Positions 1,255 through 26,259 of a DNA stretch of 64,000 bases are shown here, piece by piece. The stretch comes from Sulfurimonas sp. HSL-1716 (GTDB taxonomy: Bacteria > Campylobacterota > Campylobacteria > Campylobacterales > Sulfurimonadaceae): contig NZ_CP147918.1 of NCBI RefSeq assembly GCF_039645975.1, positions 186,001 through 250,000 of the forward strand. The letters are read 5' to 3'. A program made the position numbers and the translations under genes. The notes beneath the pieces are model-generated. The model ran no database searches and had not been told where the DNA came from. It worked only from the letters and a program-made list of their open reading frames with translations. Each line of letters opens with the position of its first letter. Positions within the stretch are counted from its first letter, which is position 1.

Positions 1255-2003
1255 AACTATTGAATTTGGGTTGTGGAAGCAGATACCACAAAGAGTGGAT
1301 AAACTTAGATTTTAAATCAAACAATGAACATGTGCAAGCGTTTGATCTGCACGAGAAACTACCGTTTGAAGATGACAGTATGGATGTCATATACAGTTCT
1401 CATGTATTGGAGCATTTTTCAAAATGTGAAGCGCCGAATTTTTTAAAAGAGTGTTACAGGGTCTTAAAACCGCAAGGGATATTTAGGGTTGTCGTGCCTG
1501 ATCTGGAACAGCTGATGAGAAGTTATATCGAATTCTTGGATAAAGCGAAAAAAGGCGATATCGATGCCGGACAAAAATATGAATGGATCATGATAGAACT
1601 GTTTGATCAGATGGTCAGAAATTATGGAGGCGGGGAGATGCTTGAGTATTGGAAGCAAAATCCGATGCCTCAAGAAGAGTTTGTTATCCAAAGAGTCGGT
1701 TCGGAAGTGAAAAATGTGCTTGAGAACATCAGAAAAGGCCCCAACAGCGTACCGAACAAAAAGTGTATAAAAAAAAGTGCAGATGAGATCGGTAAATTTA
1801 GAACTTCTGGAGAGGTACACCAATGGATGTACGATGAGTATTCTTTAGGAACTTTACTGGCCGACATAGGATTTCAAAAGATAAAAAGGGTTGGGTTCAA
1901 TGAGTCCGATATCAAAGATTTTACGACGTACTGTCTGGATAATGAAGTGGAGGGCACCGTCAGAAAGCCCGATTCTTTATTTATGGAAGCGGTCAAGCAG
2001 TGA
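1251..2003 (+). CDS. SAM-dependent methyltransferase (type 11)
   Basis: Small class I methyltransferase. Residues 4-10 are the SAM-binding loop LNLGCGS, HVLEHF at 51-56 is the usual post-IV motif of Methyltransf_11 proteins, and a VVPD strand lies at 81-84. The C-terminal half (from about residue 100) is a helical extension with no recognised motif that contains a W-M-Y-D cluster. Both ends overlap neighbours (ATGA upstream, GTGA downstream), so it belongs to one polycistronic unit with the FkbM methyltransferase and the GT4. Likely modifies a glycan or lipid-linked sugar; substrate unknown. Confidence 0.82.
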   Translation: MKLLNLGCGSRYHKEWINLDFKSNNEHVQAFDLHEKLPFEDDSMDVIYSSHVLEHFSKCEAPNFLKECYRVLKPQGIFRVVVPDLEQLMRSYIEFLDKAKKGDIDAGQKYEWIMIELFDQMVRNYGGGEMLEYWKQNPMPQEEFVIQRVGSEVKNVLENIRKGPNSVPNKKCIKKSADEIGKFRTSGEVHQWMYDEYSLGTLLADIGFQKIKRVGFNESDIKDFTTYCLDNEVEGTVRKPDSLFMEAVKQ

Positions 2004-3640
2004 AAGTAGCACTTTTCTCGACAACCGATAACAGCGGAGGAGCGGCTCGTGCGACTTACAGGCTGAAGCGCGGGCTGCAAAATATGCAAAATATCGACAT
2101 CGATTATTTTGTCTCACACAAAGCTGACGATCTCTCTCAAGCAAAAAAACTTGACTTTAAGAACGGTGATCTCAAGGAGGCGGATTCTGCATTTTATAGC
2201 AATTATATTGTAAAAAACAGGACGGCTTTGAGCAACACGCTTTTTTCTTTCTCATATGAGGATACGAGTTTACCCGGTCTGGATGAGTATGATGTGATTA
2301 ACCTGCATTGGATAGAGTTCTTTTTATCTCTGAACAACCTATATGAATTAACCAGATCAAATAGACCGATCGTGTGGACCCTGCATGACATGAAACCTTT
2401 TACCGGCGGATGTCATTACAGTTCTACATGTAAAGGTTATGAAAGTGATTGCTCAGAATGTCCGCAGCTCATAAACGATAGTAAAAGCCTGCCAAAAACA
2501 GTTTTACAAGCAAAGCGGGAGATACTGAAAAATGCAAATATCACGATAGTGGCTCCCAGTCAGTGGCTTGCAGACGAAGCGAGAAAAAGTTCGTTGTTTA
2601 AAGATAAAAGGATTGAAGTCATACCAAACAGCATTGACAGCAGTGTCTTTAAAGCTATCGACAAAGCAGAAGCCAAAGGGAGTCTCGGGATAGATAAGGA
2701 AAAGATCGTTCTGACCTTCGGGGTCATGAATCACAGTGAAAAACGAAAAGGCTTTTTTGAACTGGTTGAAGCGATGAAAATGCTCAAAGAGAGGATAAAA
2801 GAGCTTGATGTCATCGGCCTCTTTTTTGGAGGAGAATGCAGCGACGACTTTCCTATCCCCGTGATTAATTTAGGTCTCGTAGATAACGACGAAGAGCTGA
2901 GCCGTATCTATAGTGCGGCAGATATCTTCATCCTGCCTTCACTCGAGGATAATTTACCAAATACCATTTTGGAATCTTTTTCGTGCCAAACCGCCGTAGT
3001 AGCGTTTGATACGGGCGGAGCACAAGATATAATAAGCGAGGAAAACGGCAAAATCGTTGCAAAAGGCGATATCAAAGCTTTAAGTGATGCTGTTTACGAG
3101 CTGATAATAGATAAAAAAAGCAGAGAAGATAAAGCTAAAAATGGTCGAGAACTGATAGTGCAACAGTATCAGCTCCATCATCAAGCAAAAGCATACAACA
3201 AACTCTTTGAAGAACTCAAAGAAGAAAGTTTTTACTACCAAGACAGAAATATTGATGTTAACAGTTATTTTGATGCTTTGTTAGGTTTAACATGTAGGAG
3301 TTTTCTGCCGACAAAAAAGCTGAGGTTTTCACAAAACTTCAATAAGTTTTTTGAACAGATAAACAGTATTGAAGAACAATGCATTATCTACGGACACGGA
3401 ACGATCGGCAAAGTGATATATAAGCTTATCCCTGAAAAAATAGTCGCTTTTGTCGATATATCAAGTAATGTGATCTCTTGCGATATAGCAGTTGGTGCCG
3501 TGTACTCTCCAAAAAATCTACCGAATATGCAATATGAGAAGGTCATTATTAGCGTGTTTGGTCGTGAAGAGGAGATAATAAACTATCTTTTAAAAGAGTC
3601 TGGTGTTCAAAAAGATAGGATAATCACATTAGATATTTAA
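2000..3640 (+). CDS. GT4-type glycosyltransferase with C-terminal shared module
   Basis: GT-B fold retaining glycosyltransferase (GT4/WcaC-like). The N-terminus has NSGGAARA at about residues 11-18, typical of the donor-proximal loop of these enzymes. A cysteine cluster at about 138-154 (GCHYSSTC...CSEC) is a known feature of WcaC-like members. The EX7E-type motif reads LPSLEDNLPNTILESF at 312-327. Start is GTG overlapping the previous stop (GTGA). After the GT domain the last ~97 residues form a separate Rossmann-like domain beginning IIYGHGTIGK and containing VFGREEEII. The same module is fused to five other proteins of this cluster and, more weakly, to the HAD protein on the opposite strand. 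Donor and acceptor are unknown. Confidence 0.85.
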   Translation: MKVALFSTTDNSGGAARATYRLKRGLQNMQNIDIDYFVSHKADDLSQAKKLDFKNGDLKEADSAFYSNYIVKNRTALSNTLFSFSYEDTSLPGLDEYDVINLHWIEFFLSLNNLYELTRSNRPIVWTLHDMKPFTGGCHYSSTCKGYESDCSECPQLINDSKSLPKTVLQAKREILKNANITIVAPSQWLADEARKSSLFKDKRIEVIPNSIDSSVFKAIDKAEAKGSLGIDKEKIVLTFGVMNHSEKRKGFFELVEAMKMLKERIKELDVIGLFFGGECSDDFPIPVINLGLVDNDEELSRIYSAADIFILPSLEDNLPNTILESFSCQTAVVAFDTGGAQDIISEENGKIVAKGDIKALSDAVYELIIDKKSREDKAKNGRELIVQQYQLHHQAKAYNKLFEELKEESFYYQDRNIDVNSYFDALLGLTCRSFLPTKKLRFSQNFNKFFEQINSIEEQCIIYGHGTIGKVIYKLIPEKIVAFVDISSNVISCDIAVGAVYSPKNLPNMQYEKVIISVFGREEEIINYLLKESGVQKDRIITLDI

Positions 3641-3738
3641 GCGCAGCATACCTAAATCGTTATAGATACAGATCAGTTGAGTGGAATGAGACTGTTGAAA
3701 CAATTGTTTGGTTTATAAAGAGGAACTGTATCAGATGA
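3641..3738 (+). pseudogene. Gap with a possible 3' gene relic
   Basis: This 94-base gap breaks a chain of overlapping genes. One frame stays open across it and ends in a TGA that overlaps the ATG of the next gene (ATGA at 3735-3738), the junction type used throughout the operon. Its translation has protein-like composition (SVEWNETVETIVWFIKRN). A second frame holds a 10-codon ORF at 3686-3718 reading MRLLKQLFGL, which looks like the N-terminus of a glycan-cluster enzyme. I infer a deletion scar; the original gene cannot be named. Confidence 0.35.
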
Positions 3739-4625
3739 AAAACATTGCCGTTCTTACAAATTGCCAAGGTGAGGTAATAAAAAATATTTTAAAAGAGCAT
3801 CTCAAAGATAATGTCACTTTTTTTGATGTGCCGCTTGTACATACTATCGCGCAAGATGAAATAAAAAAAGATGAAGTATTGCAATTGCTAAATGATGCTG
3901 ATTTAATTATCACACAACCTTTAGGAAATTATTTTACATCAATAAGTCTGAAAAACATAAAAGAAAAACTTGATAAAAATTTATTTGTTTTTCCGTCTAT
4001 ATATTTTCAAGGATATAATCCTGAGATGTTTTATTTTAAAAATCTTAATGGTTTTAGTAATTTAGATTTTCCTGCACATTATCATGATCTGGTGATTTTT
4101 ATCGGCTATATGAAAAAATTAACGAAAAAACAGCTTGTTGATATTTTTTATGATGATGATTTCTATTATAGCGATATTCTCAAAAAGATGTTTGATGACA
4201 GTATCTTGACATTACAAGAGTATGAACTGGAGTGTGATTTGTCTGTCTCATCCATCATTGAAAATAATAAAACAAAAAAACTGTTCTATACCTGTAACCA
4301 TCCTACGACCGATCTTTTAAATTATGTATCCAGAAATATATTGGATTATTTGGACTATACGGGTACATTTACACCTGCACAGACCGCTTTGGATTGGATA
4401 AGATATCCATCTTATGCATCGGTTGCCAAATTTTACGGGTATGATTTTGAGAGCATGTATCATATTAATGGCAGGGAGTTCTCGCGCGAAGAGATGATAG
4501 AACAGTATTTTGATTTTTATGATTCCAGAAGCGATACGGAGCTTGAATATAATTTGAATTATATAATGAATTCGAGGGGCGGAATATATAAGATTATCGG
4601 AGACTTTATGCGTGAGAAGTTTTAA
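3735..4625 (+). CDS. WcbI-like polysaccharide biosynthesis protein
   Basis: Complete WcbI-like protein (about 296 aa from the ATG at 3735). An upstream in-frame TTG at 3708 is less likely, because AGAGGAA lies correctly before the ATG. The N-terminus has the family's NCQG loop (residues 7-10) after a short beta strand, followed by a long mixed region and the KLFYTCNHPTTD stretch at about 198-209 that it shares with the partial gene at the window start. WcbI proteins are required for some capsules and have been proposed to handle acyl groups; the biochemical role remains open. It lies among glycosyltransferases and has no signal peptide, so it probably works in the cytoplasm on a glycan precursor. 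Confidence 0.65.
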   Translation: MKNIAVLTNCQGEVIKNILKEHLKDNVTFFDVPLVHTIAQDEIKKDEVLQLLNDADLIITQPLGNYFTSISLKNIKEKLDKNLFVFPSIYFQGYNPEMFYFKNLNGFSNLDFPAHYHDLVIFIGYMKKLTKKQLVDIFYDDDFYYSDILKKMFDDSILTLQEYELECDLSVSSIIENNKTKKLFYTCNHPTTDLLNYVSRNILDYLDYTGTFTPAQTALDWIRYPSYASVAKFYGYDFESMYHINGREFSREEMIEQYFDFYDSRSDTELEYNLNYIMNSRGGIYKIIGDFMREKF

Positions 4626-4710
4626 TCCTATGGTCAATACGGTATTTACAGCTATAATAAGACGAGAAAAACTCTGTTTATTGAAAAAAGGGCGAAAGGT
4701 TTTCAGGTGA
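4612..4710 (+). pseudogene. Short ORF in gap, possible gene relic
   Basis: The 81-base gap between the WcbI-like gene and the next GT2 is bridged by a small open frame. It can begin at GTG 4612 or ATG 4630, and its TGA overlaps the GTG start of the GT2 gene (GTGA at 4707-4710). The peptide is basic (ends LLKKGRKVFR) and matches nothing I recognise. The coupled junction suggests either the end of a deleted gene or a tiny translated leader that delivers ribosomes to the GT2 start. Weak evidence. Confidence 0.25.
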
Positions 4711-5768
4711 ATAATGCACAAAAAATTACAGTAATCACGATAACTTATAATGCAGAAAAATATTTAGAGAAAACTATTCAAAGCGTGATCAATCAAGACT
4801 ATGCCCATATAGAATATATTATTATTGACGGCAAAAGCAGTGATGGAACTGTTGATATCATCAAAAAGTATGAAAAAAATATATCTTATTGGATAAGCGA
4901 AGCGGATGGGGGGATATATTATGCAATGAATAAAGGCATAGAAGTCGCAACCGGTAGCTGGGTCAACTTCATGAATGCAGGAGATACGTTCGCAAGCAGC
5001 AATACGATTTCATCGATTTTTAATCATGATCTATCCGACTATGACGTCATTTGCGGAGGTGTCAATATAATAGAGAATGATGAAATCATTTTCTATGAGC
5101 CGGCACAGTCCTTAGATGTGATGGAAAAAAGATTTCCATGCAATCATCAATCGATGTTTACCAGAATCGATCCGCTGAAAAGATATAAGTTTAATACAAC
5201 CTACAAGATCGCCAGCGATGCCGATCTGATGATGAAACTTTATTACAACGGACATAAGTTTAAATTTATCGATATACCTATAGCCAATTACCTAAAAGAG
5301 GGATTCTGGGATGAAAACTATGTAAAAGCGTATGCAGAGTTGACCTATATCGTTTCAACATATAAAGAGGATCAAAACGATATTTATAAGCATACGGCAT
5401 ATAAAGGGCTGATCAAATTCGATAATAATCCAAATAGATATTTTGCGGATCTGGTGAATAGATTGATACAGGAGGTCGATTCTTTTCGTAATAGCTCTAT
5501 CGCACTTTATGGGGACGGAAACATCACTAAATTTATTCTTCCTTTTTTAAATAGATCTGTGAAAGTGATTTTTGACATTTCAATAGATAATAGGATAGAA
5601 GGTGAAATCATAAAGGATAATCCAAAAAATATTCACAATTATGATTTTGAAAAGATAGTCGTGACAGTTTTGGGAAGAGAAGAGGAAATAATAAAATATC
5701 TGGTTGAACAATTACATGTCAACAGAAGTAAAATAGTTGCTTTTGATCTAAGTTATAAAGGTAATTGA
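4707..5768 (+). CDS. GT2 glycosyltransferase with C-terminal shared module
   Basis: GT-A family 2 inverting glycosyltransferase (WcaA-like). Residues 7-15 give the first strand TVITITYNA, DGKSSDGT at 41-48 binds the nucleotide, and FMNAGDT at 88-94 stands where the metal-binding D-x-D is expected (here an AGD variant found in this subfamily). NHQSMF further on is typical of the acceptor side. The GT2 domain ends near residue 240. The last ~95 residues are the shared module: SIALYGDGNITK, then VTVLGREEEIIKYL. Start is GTG with AAAGG at suitable spacing. The product overlaps the gmd-like gene. Sugar specificity unknown. Confidence 0.83.
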   Translation: MNNAQKITVITITYNAEKYLEKTIQSVINQDYAHIEYIIIDGKSSDGTVDIIKKYEKNISYWISEADGGIYYAMNKGIEVATGSWVNFMNAGDTFASSNTISSIFNHDLSDYDVICGGVNIIENDEIIFYEPAQSLDVMEKRFPCNHQSMFTRIDPLKRYKFNTTYKIASDADLMMKLYYNGHKFKFIDIPIANYLKEGFWDENYVKAYAELTYIVSTYKEDQNDIYKHTAYKGLIKFDNNPNRYFADLVNRLIQEVDSFRNSSIALYGDGNITKFILPFLNRSVKVIFDISIDNRIEGEIIKDNPKNIHNYDFEKIVVTVLGREEEIIKYLVEQLHVNRSKIVAFDLSYKGN

Positions 5769-6736
5769 TGAAGAAAACGGCGCTTATAACCGGCATTACC
5801 GGACAGGACGGGTCTTATTTAGCAGAACTTCTGATTTCAAAAGAGTATGAAGTGCATGCGATTGTAAGACGTGAAACTCTGGAAAATAGTGAAAAATTAA
5901 AAAATATCGCACATATAGAGAACAAGATCACTCTGCATGCGGGTAGTCTGAGTGATCATCTTTCCATATACAAGATATTTGCCAAAGTTTTGCCGGACGA
6001 GTGCTATCATCTTGCCGGTTCGACGTTTGTCGATTACTCTTTTGACGAAGAGTTTCAAACAATAAGCAGTAATTTTAGTTCTACACACTATTTACTATCG
6101 ATTATTAAAGAGCTAAAGCCTGCATGTAGATTGTTTTTTGCCGGCACAAGTGAAATGTTCGGTGAACCGGTGGAGTTCCCACAAAATGAAAAAACACCGT
6201 TTAATCCAAAGAGCATCTACGGGATATCTAAAGTTTCAAGTTATTATCTAATAAAAAATTATCGTGAAAAAGAAAATATCTTTGCCTGCACCGGGATTAT
6301 GTATAACCATGAAAGTCCAAGACGCGGAAATCAGTTCGTGACCAAAAAGATCGTTACGGCTGCCGTTAAAATTAAAAAAGGATTGCAAAAAGAGATCTTT
6401 TTAGGTAATCTAGATGCGAAAAGAGATTGGGGTTACGCAAAAGATTATGTTTTAATGATGTGGAAAATATTGCAGCAGGACAAAGCTGATGACTATATCA
6501 TGGCAACAGGGAAGCTTCACAGCGTCCGGGAGTTTTTAGATATAGCGTTTTCATATCTTGGACTGGATTATAGGGATTATTTTAAGATCGATCAAAGATT
6601 TTTTAGGGCGAGTGAAAAGCTGCCGCTTTGCGGAGACACTGAAAAATTGATTTCGGCTATCGGATTTCAACACACAAAGAGTCTGCACGAAATCGTTGAA
6701 GAGATGATAGAAGCGGAATTAAAAGGATACGAGTGA
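5768..6736 (+). CDS. gmd: GDP-mannose 4,6-dehydratase family SDR
   Basis: Extended SDR close to GDP-mannose 4,6-dehydratase, which makes GDP-4-keto-6-deoxymannose, the precursor of GDP-fucose, GDP-rhamnose and related sugars. Motifs numbered from ATG 5768: NADP-binding TGITGQDGSYL at 8-18, catalytic T-S-E at 127-129, YxxxK as YGISK at 151-155, and the Gmd signatures YNHESPRRG at 179-187 and LGNLDAKRDWGYAKDY further on. At 322 aa it is somewhat shorter than typical Gmd (about 345-370). The preceding TTG would add only one residue; TGATG overlap with the previous stop supports the ATG. It implies a 6-deoxyhexose in the glycan, but no fcl or rmd partner is present here. A related 4,6-dehydratase specificity is possible. 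Confidence 0.8.
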   Translation: MKKTALITGITGQDGSYLAELLISKEYEVHAIVRRETLENSEKLKNIAHIENKITLHAGSLSDHLSIYKIFAKVLPDECYHLAGSTFVDYSFDEEFQTISSNFSSTHYLLSIIKELKPACRLFFAGTSEMFGEPVEFPQNEKTPFNPKSIYGISKVSSYYLIKNYREKENIFACTGIMYNHESPRRGNQFVTKKIVTAAVKIKKGLQKEIFLGNLDAKRDWGYAKDYVLMMWKILQQDKADDYIMATGKLHSVREFLDIAFSYLGLDYRDYFKIDQRFFRASEKLPLCGDTEKLISAIGFQHTKSLHEIVEEMIEAELKGYE

Positions 6737-6765
6737 AGAGTCTGCTAAAATCAATGTTGCGATAA
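6733..6765 (+). pseudogene. 10-codon ORF, possible 5' gene relic
   Basis: A GTG overlapping the gmd stop (GTGA) and preceded by AGGA opens a 10-codon frame, MKSLLKSMLR, ending at TAA. The start signals and coupling are those of a normal operon gene, and the peptide resembles the N-terminus of glycan-modifying enzymes, as does the MRLLKQLFGL ORF at 3686. I read it as the remains of a gene lost between gmd and the next glycosyltransferase; a regulatory leader peptide is the alternative. Confidence 0.3.
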
Positions 6766-6796
6766 TCATGAATACTACAGAAGGTTGTATAGAAGT

Positions 6797-8203
6797 ATGA
6801 AAAAAATTTTATATATAGGGCTTGAGTTCCATAAAAAAACATTGTCCACAAAATTTTTTATAGACATACTCGCAAAGCATTATGAGATAGATTTCATTTG
6901 GTGTGGGCAGTTTGAAGCATCTTTAGATGTGATGAACTCGCCTTTGATACATTCTGAGTATGATGCAGTGATATTGTTCCAGATTATGCTTACAAAAGAG
7001 AAATTGCAGTTTTTCAAATGTCAAAATATTATTTTAATACCTATGTATGACAATGATTTGAACATTACATACGGCAAGTGGAGACAGTTCGCAAAATACA
7101 AATTTATCAACTTTTCCAAAACGCTTTACGACAAGTTCTCGTTTTTAGGGGTTACAGATAATCTATATGTCCAGTATGCTCCCGACGTTGACGACAGCAT
7201 ACCTTCGGCTGTTTCAACAAAAGCAAAACTTTTTTTTTGGCAAAGAGGCAATGCGATAAACTTTGAGCTTATCAAAAAGCTTCTGGACCTCGATCAAATA
7301 GAATCGATCCATCTTCACAGGCTCAACGATAATGTCCAAAAAGATATATTTTTTAAACCGCCAAGCAAAGAAGAGATCGAAAAATATAATATTACCAGGA
7401 CAAGTTGGTTTGAAGATAAAGAGGATATAAAAAGAGTGATGCAGGGGTGTGATATATTTATCGCTCCACGACTTTATGAAGGTATCGGACAAGCGTTTTT
7501 GGAAGCTATGAGCTATGGCAAATGTGTAATATCGCCGGACCATCCTACAATGAATGAATATATTGTAGACGGAGTGGACGGATTGCTGTTTGATTATCAC
7601 GATCCCAAACGAATAGATATCTCGGATTTTAAACTGCTGGGATCAAATGCCAAAAAAAAGATACGGCAGATCCATGAGAACTTCGTATCTCAGGAGAACG
7701 AGATCATAAGCTTCATTCAACAGCCTATGACAGATCTGGATGAGAGGAAACTTTTATCCGAAAATATCCGGGAGTTGAAAAAAAGTTTACAGCCAAGCAA
7801 TTATTTTGTAGCCGAAGACCTGAAGATGGGTTATTATAATAATAATCTTAGTATGCTTTTTTCAAAATATCTAAATGTTTTGCATCAAAGATTGAAAAAT
7901 GCGGATACAAAGTTCGTTATTTACGGAGCGGGAACGGGCGCGTCTTTACTGCTGAGCATAGAAAGCAAAAAGTGCGAATATATTGTAGACAGGGATCACA
8001 GTAAGCACAACACCTGTTTAAACGATATAAAAATATTTTCGCTGGACAAATTAAGAGAAGAAAAAGAACCTAAAGATGTACTCGTGAGTGTATTTGGAAG
8101 AGCGATCGCGATCATAAGAGAACTAAAAGGAGATGAATCCTTGAGTCGTCATAACTTTATATCTCTGGACATAGACCCTTTTTACGGAGAGCTGATTGAA
8201 TAG
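6797..8203 (+). CDS. Glycosyltransferase (GT-B) with C-terminal shared module
   Basis: GT-B glycosyltransferase of the GT4/GT1 type. The C-terminal donor-binding half contains DIFIAPRLYEGIGQAFLEAM, with the E-x7-E-like acidic pair, followed by a GLLFDYHDP stretch. The N-terminal half is divergent. I prefer ATG 6797 to the TTG at 6785 because AGAAGG lies 12 bases before the ATG and abuts the TTG. The last ~105 residues are the most diverged copy of the shared module: FVIYGAGTGAS and VSVFGRAIAII, where the usual GREEEI has become GRAIAI. The gene begins after a short gap holding a relic ORF, and its end overlaps the GT9 gene by 8 bases. Confidence 0.78.
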   Translation: MKKILYIGLEFHKKTLSTKFFIDILAKHYEIDFIWCGQFEASLDVMNSPLIHSEYDAVILFQIMLTKEKLQFFKCQNIILIPMYDNDLNITYGKWRQFAKYKFINFSKTLYDKFSFLGVTDNLYVQYAPDVDDSIPSAVSTKAKLFFWQRGNAINFELIKKLLDLDQIESIHLHRLNDNVQKDIFFKPPSKEEIEKYNITRTSWFEDKEDIKRVMQGCDIFIAPRLYEGIGQAFLEAMSYGKCVISPDHPTMNEYIVDGVDGLLFDYHDPKRIDISDFKLLGSNAKKKIRQIHENFVSQENEIISFIQQPMTDLDERKLLSENIRELKKSLQPSNYFVAEDLKMGYYNNNLSMLFSKYLNVLHQRLKNADTKFVIYGAGTGASLLLSIESKKCEYIVDRDHSKHNTCLNDIKIFSLDKLREEKEPKDVLVSVFGRAIAIIRELKGDESLSRHNFISLDIDPFYGELIE

Positions 8204-9704
8204 TAAAAATTTATTGTTCGTCCGACCGGACCACATCGGCGATTACATCATTTTCAGAAATATTATGTATGCGATAAAAAAGAGCAGCAGGTTTAAAGAT
8301 TATAAGGTATTTTTTGTAGTCAACCAAAGAGTAAAAGAGTTAGTAGAGTTCTTTGATCCTGACTTGGCCGACGGATATTTTTATGTGGATCTGCAAAAAT
8401 ATATTTTGGGTCAATGGTACTATGAAAGGAAAAATCAGGAGATCTGTCAGTATCAGTATGATACCGTGATCAATGCGATGTTTGCCAGACATGATGCACT
8501 GGAACGGTTCATCGGTTCCGTAGATGCCGGAGATAAAATACTTGTCAAAGACAGGGTACATCAAAACAGATTATTTGATGCTGCTGCTTTTGATAAAAAT
8601 TATATGTCGGTGTATGATATAACAGATAACAAAGTCTTCGAGTTTGACCAGTTAAAGAGTGTTTTTGAAACTATTTTAAATGAAAAGATCTTACAGGCGA
8701 AGCCTGCCCTACATTTACCGGATTCTTGGCAGATGCAGATCAATTTTGATTTTGATTATATTGTGGTATTTATCGGTGCAGATGCGGAATATAGAAAATG
8801 GAGTGTCTATAACTATATAGAACTGATAAGATATATTTTACATGTAACGGATCTGGCAGTCGTCTTGTGTGGGGGAAATGAAGAGTCTGATGATGCGGAT
8901 GCAGTCGCAGCCGCGGTAGCCGGCAAGAAGTTTTATAATCTTGTAGGCGAGACGTCTCTGGTCGATGTTGTGGCTTTAATTTCAAATTCGAAGCTGATGA
9001 TCTCAAACGAGACTGGTTCCGTGCATATCGCTGCAGCTCTGGATAAGCCTGTTTTCGTCCTATCAAATGCAAATCATTTCGGTAAATTTACGCCGTATCC
9101 GGCATCCCATGTACAAAACTATTTTGCTTTATACCCTTTTGAATATGATGAGAATAGTTTTATGAAGTATAAAGAGCTTTATTATAACGGTTCGGCTTTG
9201 GATATCAATGAGATCGGAATCGATCAAGCGGTATCAAAATTAAATGAGATATTTCAACAGGTGGGTATCTCTTTTAGCTCGGAAGATGTACGACAAACAG
9301 AGGCTGAAAAACAGTCGTATCTCATACCCAACCAAATAAAAAGAAATTACGGGTTCGCATCGGATTACAGTCTGATCTTTGCAGAGATAATGAACTTAAA
9401 ACAAAGCGGCAGCAGATTTGTCATATACGGTAACGGTTCTTTTGGTCAGACAATTGATAAGTTTTTAGGCGATGCATGTATCGCAATAGTGGATAACAAT
9501 TCATCTTTGGTAGGTCAAACGGCAGATAAAAAGAATATCCATTCTCCTAAAAGCCTAGAATATATCGAGTTTGATAAGATCATTATCAGTTTGCTTGGAA
9601 GAGAGAACGAGATCATAAAGGACCTGGTTGAAAAACATCATGTTGCACATGAAAAGATAATAAAGTTCAAGATAAGACAAAAAGGAAGATATGAGATATG
9701 TTAG
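8196..9704 (+). CDS. GT9 (heptosyltransferase-like) with C-terminal shared module
   Basis: Glycosyltransferase family 9, related to ADP-heptose:LPS heptosyltransferases. The N-terminal LLFVRPDHIGDYI (residues 5-17) is the GT9 glycine/aspartate loop (usually R-x-x-x-x-G-D). The C-terminal half has VVLCGG, then SKLMISNETGSVHIAAAL, matching the GT9 acceptor/donor signature (D/N-S/T-G-x-x-H-x-A-A). The start is TTG at 8196, with GGAGA five bases upstream and an 8-base overlap with the previous gene. Residues from about 400 form the shared module (FVIYGNGSFGQ, ISLLGRENEII). Probably extends LPS core or another surface glycan, though the fused module is not part of ordinary heptosyltransferases. 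Confidence 0.82.
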   Translation: MNSKNLLFVRPDHIGDYIIFRNIMYAIKKSSRFKDYKVFFVVNQRVKELVEFFDPDLADGYFYVDLQKYILGQWYYERKNQEICQYQYDTVINAMFARHDALERFIGSVDAGDKILVKDRVHQNRLFDAAAFDKNYMSVYDITDNKVFEFDQLKSVFETILNEKILQAKPALHLPDSWQMQINFDFDYIVVFIGADAEYRKWSVYNYIELIRYILHVTDLAVVLCGGNEESDDADAVAAAVAGKKFYNLVGETSLVDVVALISNSKLMISNETGSVHIAAALDKPVFVLSNANHFGKFTPYPASHVQNYFALYPFEYDENSFMKYKELYYNGSALDINEIGIDQAVSKLNEIFQQVGISFSSEDVRQTEAEKQSYLIPNQIKRNYGFASDYSLIFAEIMNLKQSGSRFVIYGNGSFGQTIDKFLGDACIAIVDNNSSLVGQTADKKNIHSPKSLEYIEFDKIIISLLGRENEIIKDLVEKHHVAHEKIIKFKIRQKGRYEIC

Positions 9705-10663
9705 AGCAAAGCAAAGCAGCCAGAAGACGTTTTTATAATGGCAATTTTCATAACAGATATTTTAATGGTGAGGGGATCGACATCGGCGGCAAACCCGATC
9801 CGTTTTCCCAGTATATAGGAGTGTTTCCGCTAGTCAGATCCGTAAAGATCTGGGATCTAGAGGATGGAGACGCTCAAAAAATGCAGAACTGCGAAGATGA
9901 AAGTTTTGATTTTGTAGTATCCAGCCATTGTCTGGAGCATATGGTCGATGTGTATGAAGCTTTCCAAAACTGGCTGCGCATAACCAAAAAAGGCGGCTAT
10001 CTTATCATTACGGTCCCGGATGAAGATATGTATGAACAAAAACAATGGCCGAGCGTCTATAACACGGATCATAAGCATACGTTCACGATCCAAAAAAGTC
10101 AGAGCTGGTCTGAGCACTCTATCAATATCTTTGATCTGCTGCGTAAGTTTCAGGATCATATAGAGATTGAAAAAGTAGAAAAGATCAGTGAGTTCTATAA
10201 TCATAATCTGTATCGGGCAGATCAGACTCTGCAGCCAAATGTGGAATCGGCGATAGAGTTTATAGTAAGAAAAAAGAGCGACTTGCAGATCATAGAGATC
10301 CAAAAAGAAAGATCTCACCTGGAACCAAAGATCGAGGACAGATTTCCAAATGAGTTCAGCGAACTGCTCACGGGTATCCAAAAACTGAAAAATCAAAATA
10401 GCAGGTTTGTTGTCTACGGATACGGGAACCTCGGACGGATGTTAGATGATCTTCTCGGCGATAAAATCGTCGGATTTGTCGACGGCATCAGCGATCTGAC
10501 GGATACGCACAGTAAACGCGATGTCGTATATTCGGTGAAGAACCTTCAAAACATGGAGTTCGACCACATCATCATCACTCTTCTCGGCCGAGAAGAACAG
10601 ATCGTTCAAGAGCTTTGCAAAACATATCATCTTGATAATGACAAGATAATCTTATTGAGGTAG
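9698..10663 (+). CDS. SAM-dependent methyltransferase with C-terminal shared module
   Basis: Class I methyltransferase-like protein. The expected SAM loop is EGIDIGGKPDP (residues ~24-34), a variant with IGG in place of the usual GCG. CLEHM with an adjacent YEAFQNWLRITKKGGYL stretch matches Methyltransf_11/23 post-I motifs. A conserved DHKHTF follows. The last ~95 residues carry the shared module: FVVYGYGNLGR and ITLLGREEQIV. ATG 9698 is preceded by AAAGGAAG. It overlaps the GT9 gene by 7 bases and lies 3 bases before the TylF-like gene. Whether it methylates or only binds a nucleotide-sugar is uncertain given the altered SAM loop. Confidence 0.75.
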   Translation: MLEQSKAARRRFYNGNFHNRYFNGEGIDIGGKPDPFSQYIGVFPLVRSVKIWDLEDGDAQKMQNCEDESFDFVVSSHCLEHMVDVYEAFQNWLRITKKGGYLIITVPDEDMYEQKQWPSVYNTDHKHTFTIQKSQSWSEHSINIFDLLRKFQDHIEIEKVEKISEFYNHNLYRADQTLQPNVESAIEFIVRKKSDLQIIEIQKERSHLEPKIEDRFPNEFSELLTGIQKLKNQNSRFVVYGYGNLGRMLDDLLGDKIVGFVDGISDLTDTHSKRDVVYSVKNLQNMEFDHIIITLLGREEQIVQELCKTYHLDNDKIILLR

Positions 10664-10666
10664 TTT

Positions 10667-11701
10667 ATGAGTCTATTAAATATAAAAGAGAGATATGTTT
10701 TCTCCAGATATCTTAATGAGCTAAATAGAGAGATCGAAGCTTTTCGTCAAGCAGATGGAGAGTTTATTTTATATGGTTTCGGGATAGTAGGCGAGTATAT
10801 ATACTCTAAAATATCGGAGAAGATTTCTAGTATCGTGGATATGAGATATTTGGAAATTTCAGATCTTACGGGTTTTGAGAGAGTATATGCCCCGACAAAA
10901 CTACCGTATCTCGAACATAACAAAATCATCGTGACTGTTTTGGGTCGGGAAGAGAAGATTATCGACTATCTTATCAATGAACTGAACATTGATAAAGACA
11001 GGATATCGGTCATTAAAATAGGGAAGCAGTTTTCCAAGGTGGGGTATGAAAATATCTTTTCAAATGCAAATTACGCACCATGGAAGATAGATAACAGTTT
11101 CTTTGAGACTTTCGAGATCATTTCGACTCATACCCTTGTCGATATTTATAAGGCTTATGAGTTATGGGAATTAGTTCAACAAACCTCTAAACTTGCAGAA
11201 GGAAGTCTTATAGAGGTTGGTGTATGGAGGGGCGGAACCGGTACACTCATAGCAAAGCGGGCTCAAGATTGCGATATACGTGAGCATATATATCTATGCG
11301 ATACTTTTTCAGGTGTCGTAAAGTCCAGTGAGCATGATACATATTACTTCGATGGAGAACATGCAGATACTAGTATAGAGTATGTTGAAGATTTAATACG
11401 TAAGTTGGATTTGAAAAATGTCGAAATATTGACAGGTATCTTTCCTGATGATACATCTTTTGTAGTTAAAGATAAGAAATTTCGATTTTGTCATATAGAT
11501 GTAGATGTATATAAGTCGGCGATAGATATTGTAGATTGGATATGGGAAAGATTGGTAGTCGGGGGTATGATAGTCTTTGATGATTACGGTTTTGAGTCTT
11601 GTGACGGAATTACAAAGTTTGTAAATGAACAAAGACAATTGACTGACAGAATGGTTATATATAATCTTAACGGGCATGCCATAGTTATTAAGATTTCCTA
11701 A
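10667..11701 (+). CDS. TylF-like O-methyltransferase with N-terminal shared module
   Basis: Two-domain protein. Residues ~20-125 are the shared module, here at the N-terminus rather than the C-terminus (FILYGFGIVGEY, VTVLGREEKIIDYL). Residues ~140-344 are a TylF/CmcI-type methyltransferase: SLIEVGVWRGGTG is the SAM loop, YLCDTFSGV follows, and FCHIDVDVYKS plus GGMIVFDDYG provide the metal-binding aspartates of this family. TylF is macrocin O-methyltransferase; relatives methylate sugar hydroxyls in glycan clusters. Start ATG has GAGG upstream. The stop codon overlaps the stop of the convergent HAD gene (TAA 11699-11701 against TAG on the other strand), leaving no room for a terminator. Confidence 0.83.
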   Translation: MSLLNIKERYVFSRYLNELNREIEAFRQADGEFILYGFGIVGEYIYSKISEKISSIVDMRYLEISDLTGFERVYAPTKLPYLEHNKIIVTVLGREEKIIDYLINELNIDKDRISVIKIGKQFSKVGYENIFSNANYAPWKIDNSFFETFEIISTHTLVDIYKAYELWELVQQTSKLAEGSLIEVGVWRGGTGTLIAKRAQDCDIREHIYLCDTFSGVVKSSEHDTYYFDGEHADTSIEYVEDLIRKLDLKNVEILTGIFPDDTSFVVKDKKFRFCHIDVDVYKSAIDIVDWIWERLVVGGMIVFDDYGFESCDGITKFVNEQRQLTDRMVIYNLNGHAIVIKIS

Positions 11702-14013
11702 AAACAGATGATACGAATCTCTTTTGATAGATTTGAAAGCTTTGCAGAGATCTCTTTTGAAAAGGCAACGGATGCGATCAAAAAATTTGATTCTCCTTTT
11801 AAAAGCGCTTGTTTTGCAGTGATGACCTCATAGTTATAAAGAGTGAAGTTCCCGTTCTCCGCTTTTGAATCTATGAGATAGTTGATCTTTATGCCCCGTC
11901 TTAACAGTTCGGGCATGACCAATAATAGAAAATCTCCCGTGCCGTAGATAGAGAGAGATCTGAGCGAACCGTTACTGTCGATTTGAAGCAATATGTTCTC
12001 CAATGCAAAATCATTTATGTTTTGTTTGTATATATATCTGTTTTGCTGAATATACTTGATGTCTGTTTTTCCTGCAGCACCTTGTGGCCATGGCAGTTCA
12101 TCGAAGTATCTGGACAGGTCGTCATAAAAATCATTCATGACATTTTCAAGACCGTTGCGATTTAAAAAATCTAAACCTCTTTTATCGATTATTTTCTCTG
12201 TATTTTCCGCGGTATAGTTGAGCTCAAGAGGCAGGTCTCCAAGTTGTTGTATCTCCATGTATGTCGGAAAGTCTACTATTCTTGACAGCAGTTTTAAGAT
12301 ATATGATTGTTCATACTGCAATTCGTTTGAACCGTACTTTTGTATCACTTCAAAATACGCGTCTATGCCGGCATCAAAAGCGTTTATGATCGATCGATAT
12401 TCTTGGGATAGAGAGTTTTCGCTCAGAATAGGGATGATCTGATGATCATGTTTCTCAAAAGAGATAGTGGTATTCTCTTCGCCGTTAAATAGAAATTCAA
12501 AAATATCGGGCGATCTTCTAAACAGCTGCGTATTTCTGTAAGTCTCATTCGTAAGCGGCAGGAAAGGAAAGAGTCTTGTCTGTACTCTTTTTTCAAATGC
12601 GTCCTCGGAGATATAAAAAAGAGCATGCAGCAACGTGACGTTGTGTTTTAAAAAGCCGTCTATAATCCCTTGAACCGTCCCTGAACCGCCAAAATCGAGC
12701 AGCATAGACCCTTTGGTTATCTTTAGCTGTTTGAGATACTGGCTAAAGATGCGTTTTTCTTTTTGAATATTGAGTCTGATAACCTCTTTTTTATCTGCCA
12801 GATCATTTTGTATCTTTTCTAAGGTGTCATTGTCCAGGTCAGATATAAAAACACTAGAGTAAGTTTTTAATTGCGTATTGTCAAGATCAAGTTTAAAGAT
12901 CTTGTAAAAATCGTTCACGGACAATTTTCGGAAATTAAAGAAGGTCAGATCATTAATAGCGATATTGTCTTCATCGAGGGTTAAAAGATAGGTGGCAACC
13001 CTTGAAGCGTAGATATGGTCAAGAGAGAGATCAAGACCGTTTTGCTGCAGCAAAATATTTATATATTTATTGAATATTCTTCCTTCTCTCATGATGCTGT
13101 ATATTTTTTTAATATTGTTTTTCTTTGCCGTATCTATGACCCAGCTGCTAAACGAATGCAGTAAAGGTCCTCCTGCAAAAGCACCGAAATTATAATAAAA
13201 CCTCTCTTTTTCACCCTCATACGGATTTAAGAGGGTTGTTAAAATCCTAAGCGGGACGATCTTGGCGGGATGCGTGAACTTTGTGTAGTAGTTTTCGTGT
13301 CGGAGCATACTTTTCATATAGTGGTCAGCATCATATAAAAGGGTGGCTATGCCAAGAGCGTTCGCCATTGTAAAATCAGTATGCTGGTTATCTCCTATGT
13401 GGAGCATTTCATGGGAGCGTATCTGAAGTCGGGAGAGAACCTCTAAATAGAGTGCACCTGTATGTTTGCTTTTATTAAACTCTGAAGATATGAACAGATC
13501 GCTGATAAATGTTTTGTGTTTAAGCTTGCTAAGGGCAATTTTTCCGATATCGCTTCTACTAAGATACATATCTGAGATCAGTATGATCTGTTTGTTATGG
13601 TCATGTGCAATTTTAATCCATCTGTCAAGTTGGTGATTTACAAAGAGCGATCTTTTTTCTTCATGAAGTTCGAGCTTTATGATTTTTAAACGTTGTTTTT
13701 TTGTCAAATAGCTGAATTCATCATATATCTCATCGATTGCAACGGCGTCTTTTTTCAATTTTTTCTTGGCAGATTTTTGCGCTGCAATCCGAAAGTTTGT
13801 AAATGTGTGTTCATCTTGAAAAATATTTTTGACATAGGGATCTCTTCCAACTGCCAAGAAGATCTCTTCGTGGTTTAGGCTTTCTCGAAATACAAGAGTT
13901 TCAAAAATATCAAATGACACTACTTTAATATCAGGATCTTGTAAAAGCTCCAAAAATCTTTTTTCAACGGTGCTGCTGCTGCAAAGAGAAATAAATTTTT
14001 TGTTAGAGTTCAT
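11698..14013 (-). CDS. Large HAD-superfamily protein of the glycan cluster
   Basis: About 771 aa from the ATG at 14013; an upstream ATG at 14061 would overlap the sulfotransferase gene by 59 bases and is less likely. The N-terminal third is a HAD phosphatase-like domain: FDIFETL (motif I, with Asp nucleophile), LISDMYLS (motif II) and HIGDNQHTD (motif IV). The middle ~400 residues are not assigned; they include a GGSGTVQG loop. The final ~90 residues resemble the shared nucleotide-binding module of neighbouring proteins (LSIYGTGDF) but lack GREEEI. Very large HAD proteins of this type occur in polysaccharide loci without known reaction. It ends the minus-strand operon and overlaps the sulfotransferase gene by 11 bases. 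Confidence 0.7.
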   Translation of the reverse strand: MNSNKKFISLCSSSTVEKRFLELLQDPDIKVVSFDIFETLVFRESLNHEEIFLAVGRDPYVKNIFQDEHTFTNFRIAAQKSAKKKLKKDAVAIDEIYDEFSYLTKKQRLKIIKLELHEEKRSLFVNHQLDRWIKIAHDHNKQIILISDMYLSRSDIGKIALSKLKHKTFISDLFISSEFNKSKHTGALYLEVLSRLQIRSHEMLHIGDNQHTDFTMANALGIATLLYDADHYMKSMLRHENYYTKFTHPAKIVPLRILTTLLNPYEGEKERFYYNFGAFAGGPLLHSFSSWVIDTAKKNNIKKIYSIMREGRIFNKYINILLQQNGLDLSLDHIYASRVATYLLTLDEDNIAINDLTFFNFRKLSVNDFYKIFKLDLDNTQLKTYSSVFISDLDNDTLEKIQNDLADKKEVIRLNIQKEKRIFSQYLKQLKITKGSMLLDFGGSGTVQGIIDGFLKHNVTLLHALFYISEDAFEKRVQTRLFPFLPLTNETYRNTQLFRRSPDIFEFLFNGEENTTISFEKHDHQIIPILSENSLSQEYRSIINAFDAGIDAYFEVIQKYGSNELQYEQSYILKLLSRIVDFPTYMEIQQLGDLPLELNYTAENTEKIIDKRGLDFLNRNGLENVMNDFYDDLSRYFDELPWPQGAAGKTDIKYIQQNRYIYKQNINDFALENILLQIDSNGSLRSLSIYGTGDFLLLVMPELLRRGIKINYLIDSKAENGNFTLYNYEVITAKQALLKGESNFLIASVAFSKEISAKLSNLSKEIRIICF

Positions 14014-14791
14014 TTTGCTGCTCTTTGAATGAAAGTAGTGTCTCATAAGTCGAAGTGACATCGCTTTGGTCGAAGATAGCTCTGGCTTTGTCTGACCACA
14101 AAATCTCTTTATCCACGTAGACGGGTTCGTTTACGGTTTTCGTTTTGTTCTCTTCATTGATGATTTCGTCATACAGATTGTCCATATCTGCAGCCGTAGT
14201 ATCTAATTTGAACAGATCGATGATCTTTTGCAAGATTTTTAAACCCTCCTCTTTGTTCAAAAACTCTTTAAAATTCAAGATATAAAGATTCGCATCGTTG
14301 GGTAAGGTTTTTGTCGCTATCTTATTGTAGAAATTATGCATCTCGCGGAAGATATTTTCCGTATGGATCAGATTTTTTTGCAGATAGTGTTCAAAGGCCA
14401 GAGTATCGTCTTTGATGACCTCTTTTGATACCCACTGAATATCATCTCTTCTAAACCTAAAATCGATGAACTCAGATTCTACGACCTCTTTTGGATCCCT
14501 GATCGAGAGGAGAACATTGAGATTTTGCCATTGGTCTTTTCTAAAATGAAAAGGTGTCATATGACCGAACAAAAAGCTTCCCTCTGCTATCTTATCCAGC
14601 AGTTGATCTGAAGGAGATTCTTTTGACTGCCTGCTCGGAGACGATATATTATCGTTCATGCCGGCAGCTTTCGTATCGAGGTACTTACCGGGCTTGATAT
14701 GATAACCCGTGTTATGGACTCCTGCTTTTTCCAAAAGAACGGCTAAAAGATATGTACCGGCTTTTGGAACGGTGTATATGTAGTATTTCAT
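14003..14791 (-). CDS. Sulfotransferase-like protein
   Basis: The N-terminus YIYTVPKAGTYLL (residues 4-16) is the 5'-phosphosulfate-binding loop of PAPS-dependent sulfotransferases (PKxGTxxL), and the central LLSIRDPKEVVESEF is the 3'-phosphate-binding motif (R-D-P-x-x-x-x-x-S). Length (262 aa) fits Sulfotransfer_1/3. It would transfer sulfate from PAPS to a glycan hydroxyl, or act in a related P-loop reaction. The ATG overlaps the GT2 stop (ATGA). PAPS-dependent glycan sulfation is uncommon in Campylobacterota, so this is an informed family call and not a proven activity. Confidence 0.75.
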   Translation of the reverse strand: MKYYIYTVPKAGTYLLAVLLEKAGVHNTGYHIKPGKYLDTKAAGMNDNISSPSRQSKESPSDQLLDKIAEGSFLFGHMTPFHFRKDQWQNLNVLLSIRDPKEVVESEFIDFRFRRDDIQWVSKEVIKDDTLAFEHYLQKNLIHTENIFREMHNFYNKIATKTLPNDANLYILNFKEFLNKEEGLKILQKIIDLFKLDTTAADMDNLYDEIINEENKTKTVNEPVYVDKEILWSDKARAIFDQSDVTSTYETLLSFKEQQNEL

Positions 14792-17108: not shown

Positions 17109-18249
17109 CGGCAAATCTTTCTTCGAACACTTCCAATGCGCGCAATACGATGTCGTCCATATCGTAGTATTTATACTCCGCCAGACGCCCTACGAGAGTG
17201 AGATTTTTGAAGCTTTGCGCATACTTTTTATACTCTTCATAGCGTTTTTGATTTTCATCCGTGAAGATCGGATAGTAAGGTGTGTTCTTTCCGTAGACGA
17301 ACTCTTGCGGATACTCTTTTGCTATGGTCGTTGATTCGTGTTTTGCGTCATACATCTTTTTAAATTCGGTGATACGGGTATAATCATAATCGTTAGGATA
17401 GTTCGTCGTCGTGGCATTTTGAAAGGAATCCGTTTCGTGGTTTTCAAACACCAGCTCTATCGAACGGTAGGGAAGCGTGCCGAATCTAAAATCAAATAGC
17501 TCATCGATCATTCCCGTAAAGACGACTTCACCCTCAAGGAGGCGATCTTCAAATATAAAGTTCTCACCCTCTATGCGCAAGATGTCTTTGAACTCCGTGT
17601 TAAGGCGTATCTCTATATTTTCATGAGAAAGCATGTTCTCAAAAAGCTTTGCATATCCCTCTTGGGGCATCGCCTGAAATGGGTCGTGGAAATATCTGTC
17701 GTCTTTGCTGATGGCTACGGGAACCCTTGCGCTCACCGCAGGGTCAAGCTCTTCGATCTTTTTGCCCCACTGTTTTGCGGAGTAGTGCAAAAAGATCTTT
17801 TCGTAAATAAAATCAGCGATGAATCTGAGATCTTTGTCGGCTGTCTTTTGAAGTTCCAGGATCGTGACTTTTTTTCCGTAACCATAGGTTTCTACCAGGT
17901 TTTTTTCGATCGATTCGGCCATGAAACGGGGGAAAAGCTTGTGAAGGGTGTTGAGGTTAAAAGGGATCGGAACATAGTGTCCGTCTATGAATCCTTCTAC
18001 TTTATGATGGTAATTATGCCATGAGGTGAACTGACTAAGAAAAGTCCATACTTTTTGACTGTCGGTATGAAAAAGGTGCGGACCGTAGTTATGGATGAGA
18101 ATTCCGTGTTCATCGATGCTGTCAAAACAGTTTCCGCCGATATGGGGGCGTTTGTCTATGATCAAAACTTTTTTGTTCTGCCGGGTTGCCAGTTTGTGAG
18201 CTAGGACGCTGCCCGCAAATCCTGCTCCGACTATGATGACGTCATACAT
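17101..18249 (-). CDS. glf: UDP-galactopyranose mutase
   Basis: Flavoenzyme that interconverts UDP-galactopyranose and UDP-galactofuranose, supplying Galf for surface polysaccharides. The whole 382-aa protein reads as Glf: FAD-binding VGAGFAGS at residues 7-14, HIGGNCFD at ~36-43, the YGPHLFHT stretch at ~55-62 and, near the C-terminus, LVGRLAEYKYYDMDD, which contacts flavin and substrate. It is followed by two GlfT-like glycosyltransferases with overlapping frames and preceded by pseI (8-base overlap). The combination implies the cell makes both Galf and pseudaminic acid from one transcript. Confidence 0.95.
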   Translation of the reverse strand: MYDVIIVGAGFAGSVLAHKLATRQNKKVLIIDKRPHIGGNCFDSIDEHGILIHNYGPHLFHTDSQKVWTFLSQFTSWHNYHHKVEGFIDGHYVPIPFNLNTLHKLFPRFMAESIEKNLVETYGYGKKVTILELQKTADKDLRFIADFIYEKIFLHYSAKQWGKKIEELDPAVSARVPVAISKDDRYFHDPFQAMPQEGYAKLFENMLSHENIEIRLNTEFKDILRIEGENFIFEDRLLEGEVVFTGMIDELFDFRFGTLPYRSIELVFENHETDSFQNATTTNYPNDYDYTRITEFKKMYDAKHESTTIAKEYPQEFVYGKNTPYYPIFTDENQKRYEEYKKYAQSFKNLTLVGRLAEYKYYDMDDIVLRALEVFEERFADA

Positions 18250-19258
18250 TGATATTCTCCCATGAAAGCGGTGTGCCTGCCTTTATATCGGTTAGTGCAA
18301 TTTTACCCAAAATCTCTTCATAGTGTTTTGGATGCAGCCCGTCGCCCGGACGGATGCTTTTGATGTTCTCTTTTGTAAAGCTTTCGCCTTTTTTGATGTC
18401 GCGGCTGACATAGAGGCTTCTGGCGTATTTTTTGGATTTGTCGTCATATTTTACGTGTCCCAGCATCTTTTCGACGTTTCGCACGCTTTGCACCATCTCG
18501 CGCAGCTGAGAGGGCGAGAGTGAGAAGGCGCCATCGGGCGTTTCTATGTTTTCATCGGGGGTGAAATGTTTTTCTATCACTCTCGCACCGAGTGCCACCG
18601 AGGCGATGACCGCGTCGTTGCCAAGCGTATGATCGGAAAGTCCGACCTCCGCAGCGAATCGCTCTTTCATATCGGCGATGGTGAGCAGGTTCATGGATTC
18701 GGGTGCGGCGGGGTAGGCGCTTGTACATTTTAAAAGCACGATATTTTCATTGCCCTCACTCTTGCAGGCAGCGACTGCGAGCTCGATGTCTAGGGTATCG
18801 CCGACACCCGTGGAGATGATGACGGGCTTGCCTTTGGAAGCGGCATAACGGATAAGCGGGATGTCCGTTATCTCAAAGGAGGCTATTTTGTATGCGGGTA
18901 CTTCTATCTTTTCCAAGACATCGACCGCCTGCAGATCAAAAGGCGATGAAAAAAGCAAGATGCCCAGTTCGTCTGCATACTTCTTTAACGGTTTGTGCCA
19001 CTCATAAGGCATACATGCACGTTTGTAAAGGTCGTAAAGGTATTCGTCCTGCCACAGGTCACCCGCTTTGAACCTCTCCTCTTTGACATCAAGGGTAAGT
19101 GAATCCGGTGTGTAGGTCTGTAGTTTTACGGCGTCGCATCCCGCTTCATACGCGACTCTTACTCCCTTTTTTGCCAGTTCAAAATCTTGGTTGTGGTTTG
19201 CCGAGAGCTCTGCGATGATAAAGACTTTTTTGTCCGTGTCGTGTGTACCTATCTTCAT
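18242..19258 (-). CDS. pseI: Pseudaminic acid synthase PseI
   Basis: NeuB-family synthase that condenses phosphoenolpyruvate with 2,4-diacetamido-2,4,6-trideoxy-L-altrose to give pseudaminic acid. The N-terminal TIM barrel shows IIAELSANHNQ (residues 14-24), AVKLQTYTPD (~43-52), YKIASFEI and the VIEKHFTPD metal-site region; the C-terminal ~60 residues form the SAF/antifreeze-like domain (RSLYVSRDIKKGE). Length is normal (338 aa). The ATG overlaps the pseH stop (ATGA). Neighbouring pseH, pseG, pseC and pseB support PseI over legionaminic or sialic acid synthase. Confidence 0.93.
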   Translation of the reverse strand: MKIGTHDTDKKVFIIAELSANHNQDFELAKKGVRVAYEAGCDAVKLQTYTPDSLTLDVKEERFKAGDLWQDEYLYDLYKRACMPYEWHKPLKKYADELGILLFSSPFDLQAVDVLEKIEVPAYKIASFEITDIPLIRYAASKGKPVIISTGVGDTLDIELAVAACKSEGNENIVLLKCTSAYPAAPESMNLLTIADMKERFAAEVGLSDHTLGNDAVIASVALGARVIEKHFTPDENIETPDGAFSLSPSQLREMVQSVRNVEKMLGHVKYDDKSKKYARSLYVSRDIKKGESFTKENIKSIRPGDGLHPKHYEEILGKIALTDIKAGTPLSWENINV

Positions 19259-24619: not shown

Positions 24620-24621
24620 AG

Positions 24622-24631
24622 TATAATTATA
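24622..24631. promoter_or_regulatory. Palindromic -10 box shared by divergent genes
   Basis: TATAATTATA is its own reverse complement, so it provides a perfect TATAAT on each strand. On the minus strand the transcript would start at or within one base of the spsF ATG (24619), making it leaderless. On the plus strand it would give a leader of about 50 bases before the YwbE gene. No clear -35 is visible on either strand, which is usual for Campylobacterota. Predicted from sequence only. Confidence 0.5.
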
Positions 24632-24683
24632 GCTAGAACCAATCTCAAAATGCCCTTAAAACGGGATATACAAAGGAAGTTGT

Positions 24684-24881
24684 TTGATAGACGGCAGAGA
24701 ACGCAAAAATATACGAAGCGGCATACGCGTGGCGATAGTGCTTAAACAGGATCAAAGCACGGGAAAATTGACCGAAGGCGTAGTGCGCGACATCCTGACA
24801 AATTCGGCTTTTCATCCTCACGGTATCAAAGTGCGTCTTATGAACAAAGAGGTCGGACGTGTGAAGGAGATATACGGCTAG
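24684..24881 (+). CDS. ywbE: YwbE family protein
   Basis: Short 65-aa protein reading as the YwbE (DUF2196) family along its full length: DGRERKNIRSGIRV, VLKQDQSTGKLTEG and SAFHPHGIKVRL are near-identical to the family pattern. The fold is probably a small beta barrel; the function is unknown. The start is TTG 24684 with AAAGGAAG immediately upstream. It is followed directly by the beta-propeller gene (stop TAG abuts the ATG), and both sit, in opposite orientation, between the two halves of the pse operon. Confidence 0.88.
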   Translation: MIDGRERKNIRSGIRVAIVLKQDQSTGKLTEGVVRDILTNSAFHPHGIKVRLMNKEVGRVKEIYG

Positions 24882-26258: not shown

Positions 26259-26259
26259 A

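Follow-up and report, generated by a model that had tools for sequence, protein, structure and literature searches.

A domain shared by six neighbouring glycan enzymes

In the 64,000-nt stretch of the Sulfurimonas sp. HSL-1716 genome analysed here (henceforth ‘the window’, in whose numbering positions are given), six of the eight genes between 2000 and 11701 encode proteins that share a homologous domain of ~88 residues (henceforth ‘the module’), which is C-terminal in five of them and N-terminal in the TylF-type methyltransferase. A preliminary description of this DNA had proposed one block of ~90 residues common to six glycan enzymes. The genes and their module copies, the latter with coordinates taken from a hidden Markov model (HMM) alignment, are as follows (GT, glycosyltransferase; SAM, S-adenosylmethionine).

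2000..3640, + strand: GT4 glycosyltransferase with a C-terminal module (Pfam PF00534/PF13692/PF13439)
3374..3637, + strand: module copy 1, GT4 (HMM E 2e-37; BLAST to TylF copy 1e-17)
4707..5768, + strand: GT2 glycosyltransferase, WcaE-like, with a C-terminal module (PF00535; TIGR04009 match below cut-off)
5493..5756, + strand: module copy 2, GT2 (HMM E 2e-32; BLAST to GT4 copy 4e-12)
6785..8203, + strand: GT-B glycosyltransferase (Glycos_transf_1) with a C-terminal module (PF00534)
7907..8179, + strand: module copy 3, GT-B, the most divergent of the six (HMM E 1e-32; sub-threshold PF08484)
8196..9704, + strand: GT9, heptosyltransferase-like, with a C-terminal module (PF01075)
9411..9680, + strand: module copy 4, GT9 (HMM E 2e-38; sister of the methyltransferase copy, 99/83*)
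9698..10663, + strand: SAM methyltransferase (Methyltransf_11/23) with a C-terminal module (PF08241, PF13489)
10400..10660, + strand: module copy 5, methyltransferase, the copy modelled with AlphaFold2 (pLDDT 89.3, pTM 0.81)
10667..11701, + strand: TylF-type methyltransferase with an N-terminal module (PF05711)
10757..11026, + strand: module copy 6, N-terminal, TylF-type (HMM E 3e-35)

Homology of the copies was evident from pairwise BLASTP between the blocks, run with an effective database size of 1e8 letters: the GT9 and methyltransferase copies matched each other at E 1e-22, the GT4 copy matched the TylF (1e-17), methyltransferase (1e-16), GT9 (3e-12) and GT2 (4e-12) copies, and the five well-conserved copies were all interlinked. 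The GT-B copy gave only weak pairwise matches (E 0.04-0.2), but was clear by profile (HMM E 1e-32, against a profile that itself included this copy) and fell into a supported subclade with copies of other genomes in the domain tree. By BLASTP, HMM and tree, the six copies are one family rather than members of different known families. In the alignment of the proposed blocks the Y, G, G, D, G, R, I and L columns were invariant, and the whole-domain BLAST and HMM scores led us to reject a chance GxGxxG resemblance. The motifs first described were right overall, although the last glycine of GxGxxG is absent from the GT2 and GT-B copies and the GREEEI motif is altered in four copies, to GRENEI, GREEQI or GREEKI in three and to GRAIAI in the GT-B copy. 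Likewise, the GT-B gene exists as described, although its open reading frame spans 6785-8203 and the start given for it, 6797, is a possible internal one; and the hosts, described as six unrelated enzymes, do belong to six families, although these represent three catalytic folds (GT-A, GT-B and SAM methyltransferase), to which the HAD-type protein described below adds a further one. Since the block received no Pfam or NCBIfam assignment in these six proteins, model-based annotation would miss the module there.

A weaker seventh copy had been suspected at the end of the adjoining HAD protein, and a divergent relative of the module was indeed found there.

11698..14061, - strand: HAD-type protein with a divergent C-terminal module relative (PF00702, PF13242)
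11704..11961, - strand: module copy 7, divergent, HAD C-terminus (HMM, profile-profile, predicted fold)

Pairwise BLAST gave no link between this C-terminus and the six other copies. However, the module HMM run on the single HAD protein matched it with an independent E-value of 2.4e-5, profile-profile comparison gave a probability of 94%, and a structure predicted from HAD relatives only (pLDDT 78.5) matched 3nkl, Rex, 2g6t and, lower, PerB, a GDP-perosamine N-acetyltransferase solved with its nucleotide sugar, GDP-perosamine. Because HMM, profile-profile comparison and the independently predicted fold agree, we read the HAD C-terminus as a divergent relative of the module. The module also appears to be a fixed part of this HAD family, since the full-length relatives seen, in three other genomes, align through it. 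In different genera the HAD protein repeatedly adjoins a module-bearing gene in convergent orientation (11698-14061 of the window; loci L042, L044 and L052), a pairing which suggests a shared pathway step.

Mobility of the module and its association with nonulosonate islands

Searches of whole genomes, which covered the phylum of the window, Campylobacterota, found the domain in 48 of 397 genomes; searches of plasmids and phages with the consensus returned no match, and a collection scan with a single protein as query returned one locus. The hosts comprise GT2, two GT4 types, GT-B, GT9, CgeB-like (Glyco_trans_1_2), WbsX, RgpF, LicD and TylF proteins, Methyltransf_11/23 and Methyltransf_24 methyltransferases, a GT2-FkbM fusion, a sulfotransferase, GSCFA and radical SAM/SPASM proteins and several unassigned proteins. 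The module has been passed among at least a dozen enzyme kinds in such gene islands. The tree of 65 domains has few columns and many open forks. In it, one starred clade (100/99*) unites 46 copies, from 19 Campylobacterota loci or genomes, and spans most hosts; it includes the N-terminal TylF copies of the window and of genome G294 and, as sisters, the window GT9 and methyltransferase copies, but not the N-terminal modules of other TylF proteins and of LicD proteins. Module-less proteins are common among close relatives of the hosts: 27 of 29 GT9 relatives, eight of 21 TylF relatives (one of them a fragment) and at least 24 GT2 relatives were without the module, most of the module-less GT9 and GT2 proteins ending a few to some tens of residues past the catalytic domain. 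An origin as an obligatory part of the enzyme is therefore rejected for the GT9, GT2 and TylF hosts by their module-less relatives, although not for the HAD host, where the module looks fixed. Overall, the mobile or shared accessory domain first proposed is borne out by one clade, varied hosts and module-less close relatives, and the host families at large do not need the module for catalysis. A stand-alone module protein of 132 residues with a weak PglD_N match is encoded inside a glycan gene cluster of another locus (L045 3519-3917).

The window genes form part of an island whose first genes, at G000:C1:162-168.6 kb, encode flagellins and a Maf-type transferase (above cut-off for both PF01973 and PF20157), and which then runs through NeuB and other nonulosonate (NulO) genes to a FliD-like gene. 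NulO synthesis genes, Maf and flagellar genes (FliD by reading) are found together, as in a nonulosonate flagellin-glycosylation island. Its further genes in the window are listed below.

3708..4625, + strand: WcbI-like gene without a module, same operon (PF18588)
5765..6736, + strand: GDP-mannose 4,6-dehydratase-like gene without a module, same operon (PF16363)
18242..19258, - strand: NeuB/PseI nonulosonate synthase (PF03102)
22864..28391, - strand: nonulosonate genes: PseG-like (by reading only), CTP_transf_3, DegT aminotransferase, Polysacc_synt_2 dehydratase
29040..30755, - strand: FliD-like flagellar cap protein on the far side of the island (read from translation)

Module clusters of other genomes also hold NeuB, PseG, PseC, PseB or Maf homologues. 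Of the 18 genomes with strong matches to the module, 17 have NeuB on the contig of the module genes and always within 8.3 kb of them; a random place in those genomes would have a chance of ~1% or less of lying so close. In the eighteenth the modules are at the end of a contig that also carries Maf. Since clustering is usual for glycan genes, we chose a stricter control, the relatives of the window GT2 catalytic domain. Whereas seven of seven module-bearing members of this family lie in NulO islands (one judged by Maf only), only two of 20 sampled module-less members do (Fisher 4e-5, or 6e-4 with the Maf-only case scored against the association; given the common ancestry of the members, these values overstate independence). 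Both kinds occur in genomes G202 and G253, the module-bearing GT2 inside the island and the module-less one elsewhere. Among the LicD-type N-terminal relatives, some (in f7 genomes) lie in NulO islands, and in the f3 genomes checked (G012, G017, G158 and G268) the best NeuB match is far from them or on another contig. Overall, the module copies mark flagellin-glycosylation islands of Campylobacterota for nonulosonates of the pseudaminic/legionaminic type, an association that is new here.

Fold and known relatives of the module

The structure prediction proposed for one copy was carried out with AlphaFold2, using 65 Campylobacterota copies, and gave a small Rossmann element order with a mean predicted local distance difference test score (pLDDT) of 89.3 and a predicted template modelling score (pTM) of 0.81. 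The model has the beta-alpha-beta unit, glycine-rich loop, Asp after strand 2 and small parallel sheet expected of that superfamily. Foldseek against the PDB placed 2g6t first (E 1.2e-3), followed by 3nkl and, lower, by Rex and KijD1, a C3-methyltransferase; no match had an E-value below 1e-3. In a PDB profile search 3nkl was best (1e-8), 2g6t second (9e-5) and Rex followed at 3e-4. The 65 copies scanned singly gave mainly weak matches to PglD_N, C2185-like_N, Methyltransf_14 and general NAD/CoA domains. Distant relatives in the same genome are the N-domain of a WbpM-like dehydratase, which is a separate gene, the C-terminus of a Methyltransf_23 protein, a GT2/radical-SAM protein and the N-terminus of an unassigned 514-residue protein, and two of these four sit within the island of the window.

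The known domains closest to the module each resemble it in part. The top PDB fold match and second profile match, 2g6t, is an uncharacterised Clostridium acetobutylicum protein whose domain is, judging by the names, probably PF22674, C2185-like_N. Although this family gave weak matches in 17 of the 65 copies, its matches in full proteins and genomes were all under the curated cut-off of 27 bits (19.7 bits in the best relative genome), and the six window proteins had no match. The WbpM/FlaA1-type N-domain (3nkl; CoA_binding_3, PF13727) is the best PDB profile match and that of the WbpM-like protein of the genome itself matches the module, but it belongs to one enzyme family, whereas the module is fused to many in which it is dispensable, and the module hosts of the window are without PF02719 (Polysacc_synt_2). 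Methyltransf_14 (PF08484), the C-domain of KijD1 (5t6b), resembles the module in fold (TM-score 0.65) and gave weak Pfam matches in seven copies. However, its model has 160 positions and is longer than the module, the GT-B copy reached 19.1-21.2 bits against a cut-off of 23.5 bits with no match in the other window copies, and in place of the Zn-binding and SAM domains that precede it in that family the hosts are GT2, GT4, GT9, TylF and others. The N-terminal domain of PglD is fused to a left-handed beta-helix acetyltransferase; PglD_N (PF17836) matched 18 of the 65 copies weakly, all of these matches being in copies other than those of the window, where no full-length protein matched. The likeness to PglD_N and C-methyltransferase domains noted at the outset is visible in weak matches and in the KijD1 fold, with no match over a cut-off. 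The novelty claimed for the module must be toned down: small Rossmann accessory domains carried by glycan enzymes (PglD_N, Methyltransf_14, C2185-like_N, WbpM N-domain) are an already known kind. In a literature search on the domain, on CAC2185/2g6t and on Methyltransf_14 fusions we found no description of the module, which is, in the libraries and papers searched, an undescribed branch of that kind; the new points are the breadth of its hosts and its tie to nonulosonate islands.

A conserved cleft and a possible role in acceptor recognition

All copies of the 46-copy clade have Y6, G7 and D28, and almost all have G9; conservation is strong, or holds for most copies, at S/T60, G63, R64 and E65. 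In the model, as read from secondary structure, these residues lie at the ends of strands 1, 2 and 4, the nucleotide-binding edge of a Rossmann fold, and the sequence outside this cleft is very divergent. Another ligand is suggested for the LicD-type N-terminal relatives, which form separate branches: in these, DN follows strand 2 and a Trp often replaces the GRE loop.

The module probably grips the shared (nucleotide-linked) substrate of the pathway or holds the enzymes together. Ligand binding is favoured because of the relatives and the conserved cleft, whereas none of the tests made here spoke for docking. Domains related to the module, in PerB and PglD and in sugar C-methyltransferases, serve nucleotide-sugar enzymes, and the GDP-mannose 4,6-dehydratase-like gene, which acts on a free GDP-sugar, is without a module; on these grounds we tentatively favour a role as a shared handle for a nucleotide-linked acceptor. 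The glycine-rich loop, the invariant Asp that follows strand 2 and the Gly-Arg-Glu loop behind strand 4 would hold the acceptor by its nucleotide or phosphate moiety; the acceptor itself may plausibly be a nucleotide-activated nonulosonate or a sugar chain begun from one, and the module would present it to whichever catalytic domain it is fused to. In origin, the module is kin to the small Rossmann domains found in nucleotide-sugar enzymes, and it has been transferred to glycosyltransferases and methyltransferases as well as to a sulfotransferase and further tailoring enzymes. A more specific version, in which flagellin glycans are built on the cytidine monophosphate-linked nonulosonate (CMP-NulO) before transfer by Maf and each acceptor enzyme grips the CMP end through its own module, would be decidedly improbable as things stand.

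Several observations weigh against an acceptor handle. The third glycine is often lost and one copy is without GREE; the operon also contains the methyltransferases at 499-2003 and the WcbI gene, none of which has a module; and domains of this sort are not known to bind CMP-NulO. The pathway has a known counterpart in the polar-flagellum island of Aeromonas, where a pseudaminic acid (Pse)-linked flagellin glycan is extended with hexoses and N-acetylhexosamine, carries methyl and phosphate groups and is encoded (Fgi-1 to Fgi-12) beside the Pse genes (PMC7874193). There, loss of Fgi-1 leaves flagellin with only one Pse (PMC7874193), an outcome compatible with growth of the chain on Pse already attached to the protein and equally with growth on the nucleotide-linked form.

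The modules might instead bind each other or a shared partner (Maf, flagellin or a chaperone) and tether the enzymes into an assembly complex, the docking role that the preliminary description had put forward beside ligand binding. Their concentration in adjacent genes of one island per genome, the module in six of the eight genes at 2000-11701 and the fusion at either host end, which suggests a tether, are what such docking would lead one to expect, but the invariant residues lie at the nucleotide edge and not on the outer helix faces, and mean identity between copies was no higher within genomes (0.308) than between them (0.312; permutation p 0.61), i.e. no genome-specific interface was visible. 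The identity comparison carries little weight, as docking surfaces might be conserved across all genomes; nevertheless, acceptor recognition is favoured because of the conserved nucleotide edge and the lack of genome-specific co-variation, and docking is possible but somewhat doubtful. The same comparison gave no sign of concerted evolution of the copies within a genome. That the module is a vestige, fused from nucleotide-sugar enzymes and kept ligand-free for folding or oligomerisation, would agree with the many module-less host relatives and with the divergence outside the cleft, but we consider it unlikely, as Y6, G7 and D28 invariant and G9 nearly so over 46 copies on different hosts exceed what stabilisation would need. 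A Rex-like sensor that would regulate the fused enzyme on binding NAD(H) or some related metabolite is very unlikely: Rex is among the better fold and profile matches and GxGxxG is accompanied by an acidic residue after strand 2, but Rex relatives share this general Rossmann signature, the third glycine is often lost and redox control has no obvious use here that the relatives elsewhere in the genome would lack.

As a sequence marker, the module points to elaborate nonulosonate-based flagellin glycans. It also offers a single handle on how the enzymes that extend and decorate these glycans recognise their substrate, and bears on whether the chain grows on nucleotide, lipid or protein. Glycosyltransferases, methyltransferases and a sulfotransferase have all acquired the domain, which could also be put to use in redirecting such enzymes.

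Further genes were noted in and around the island. Among the nonulosonate genes of the window lie a KAS III-like gene (ACP_syn_III domains) and a HAD/FkbH-like gene (19987-22877). FkbH-type proteins load glyceryl units on acyl carrier protein, and Pse of C. jejuni can carry methylated glyceric acid; a glyceryl-type decoration is therefore possible. A 458-residue protein without a Pfam match is encoded inside the nonulosonate block on the opposite strand (24882-26258, + strand). In the upstream island, translations at L060 2465-8414 read as three radical-SAM/SPASM-like genes and a split transketolase pair between Maf and further glycosyltransferases, and the 514-residue protein with the N-terminal module relative (39 bits) lies at L060 10196-11740, has a hydrophobic segment and gave no Pfam match. 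Finally, a 1011-residue signalling protein with NMT1/THI5-like, family 3 solute-binding, PAS and GGDEF domains is encoded at 31972-35007 of the window.

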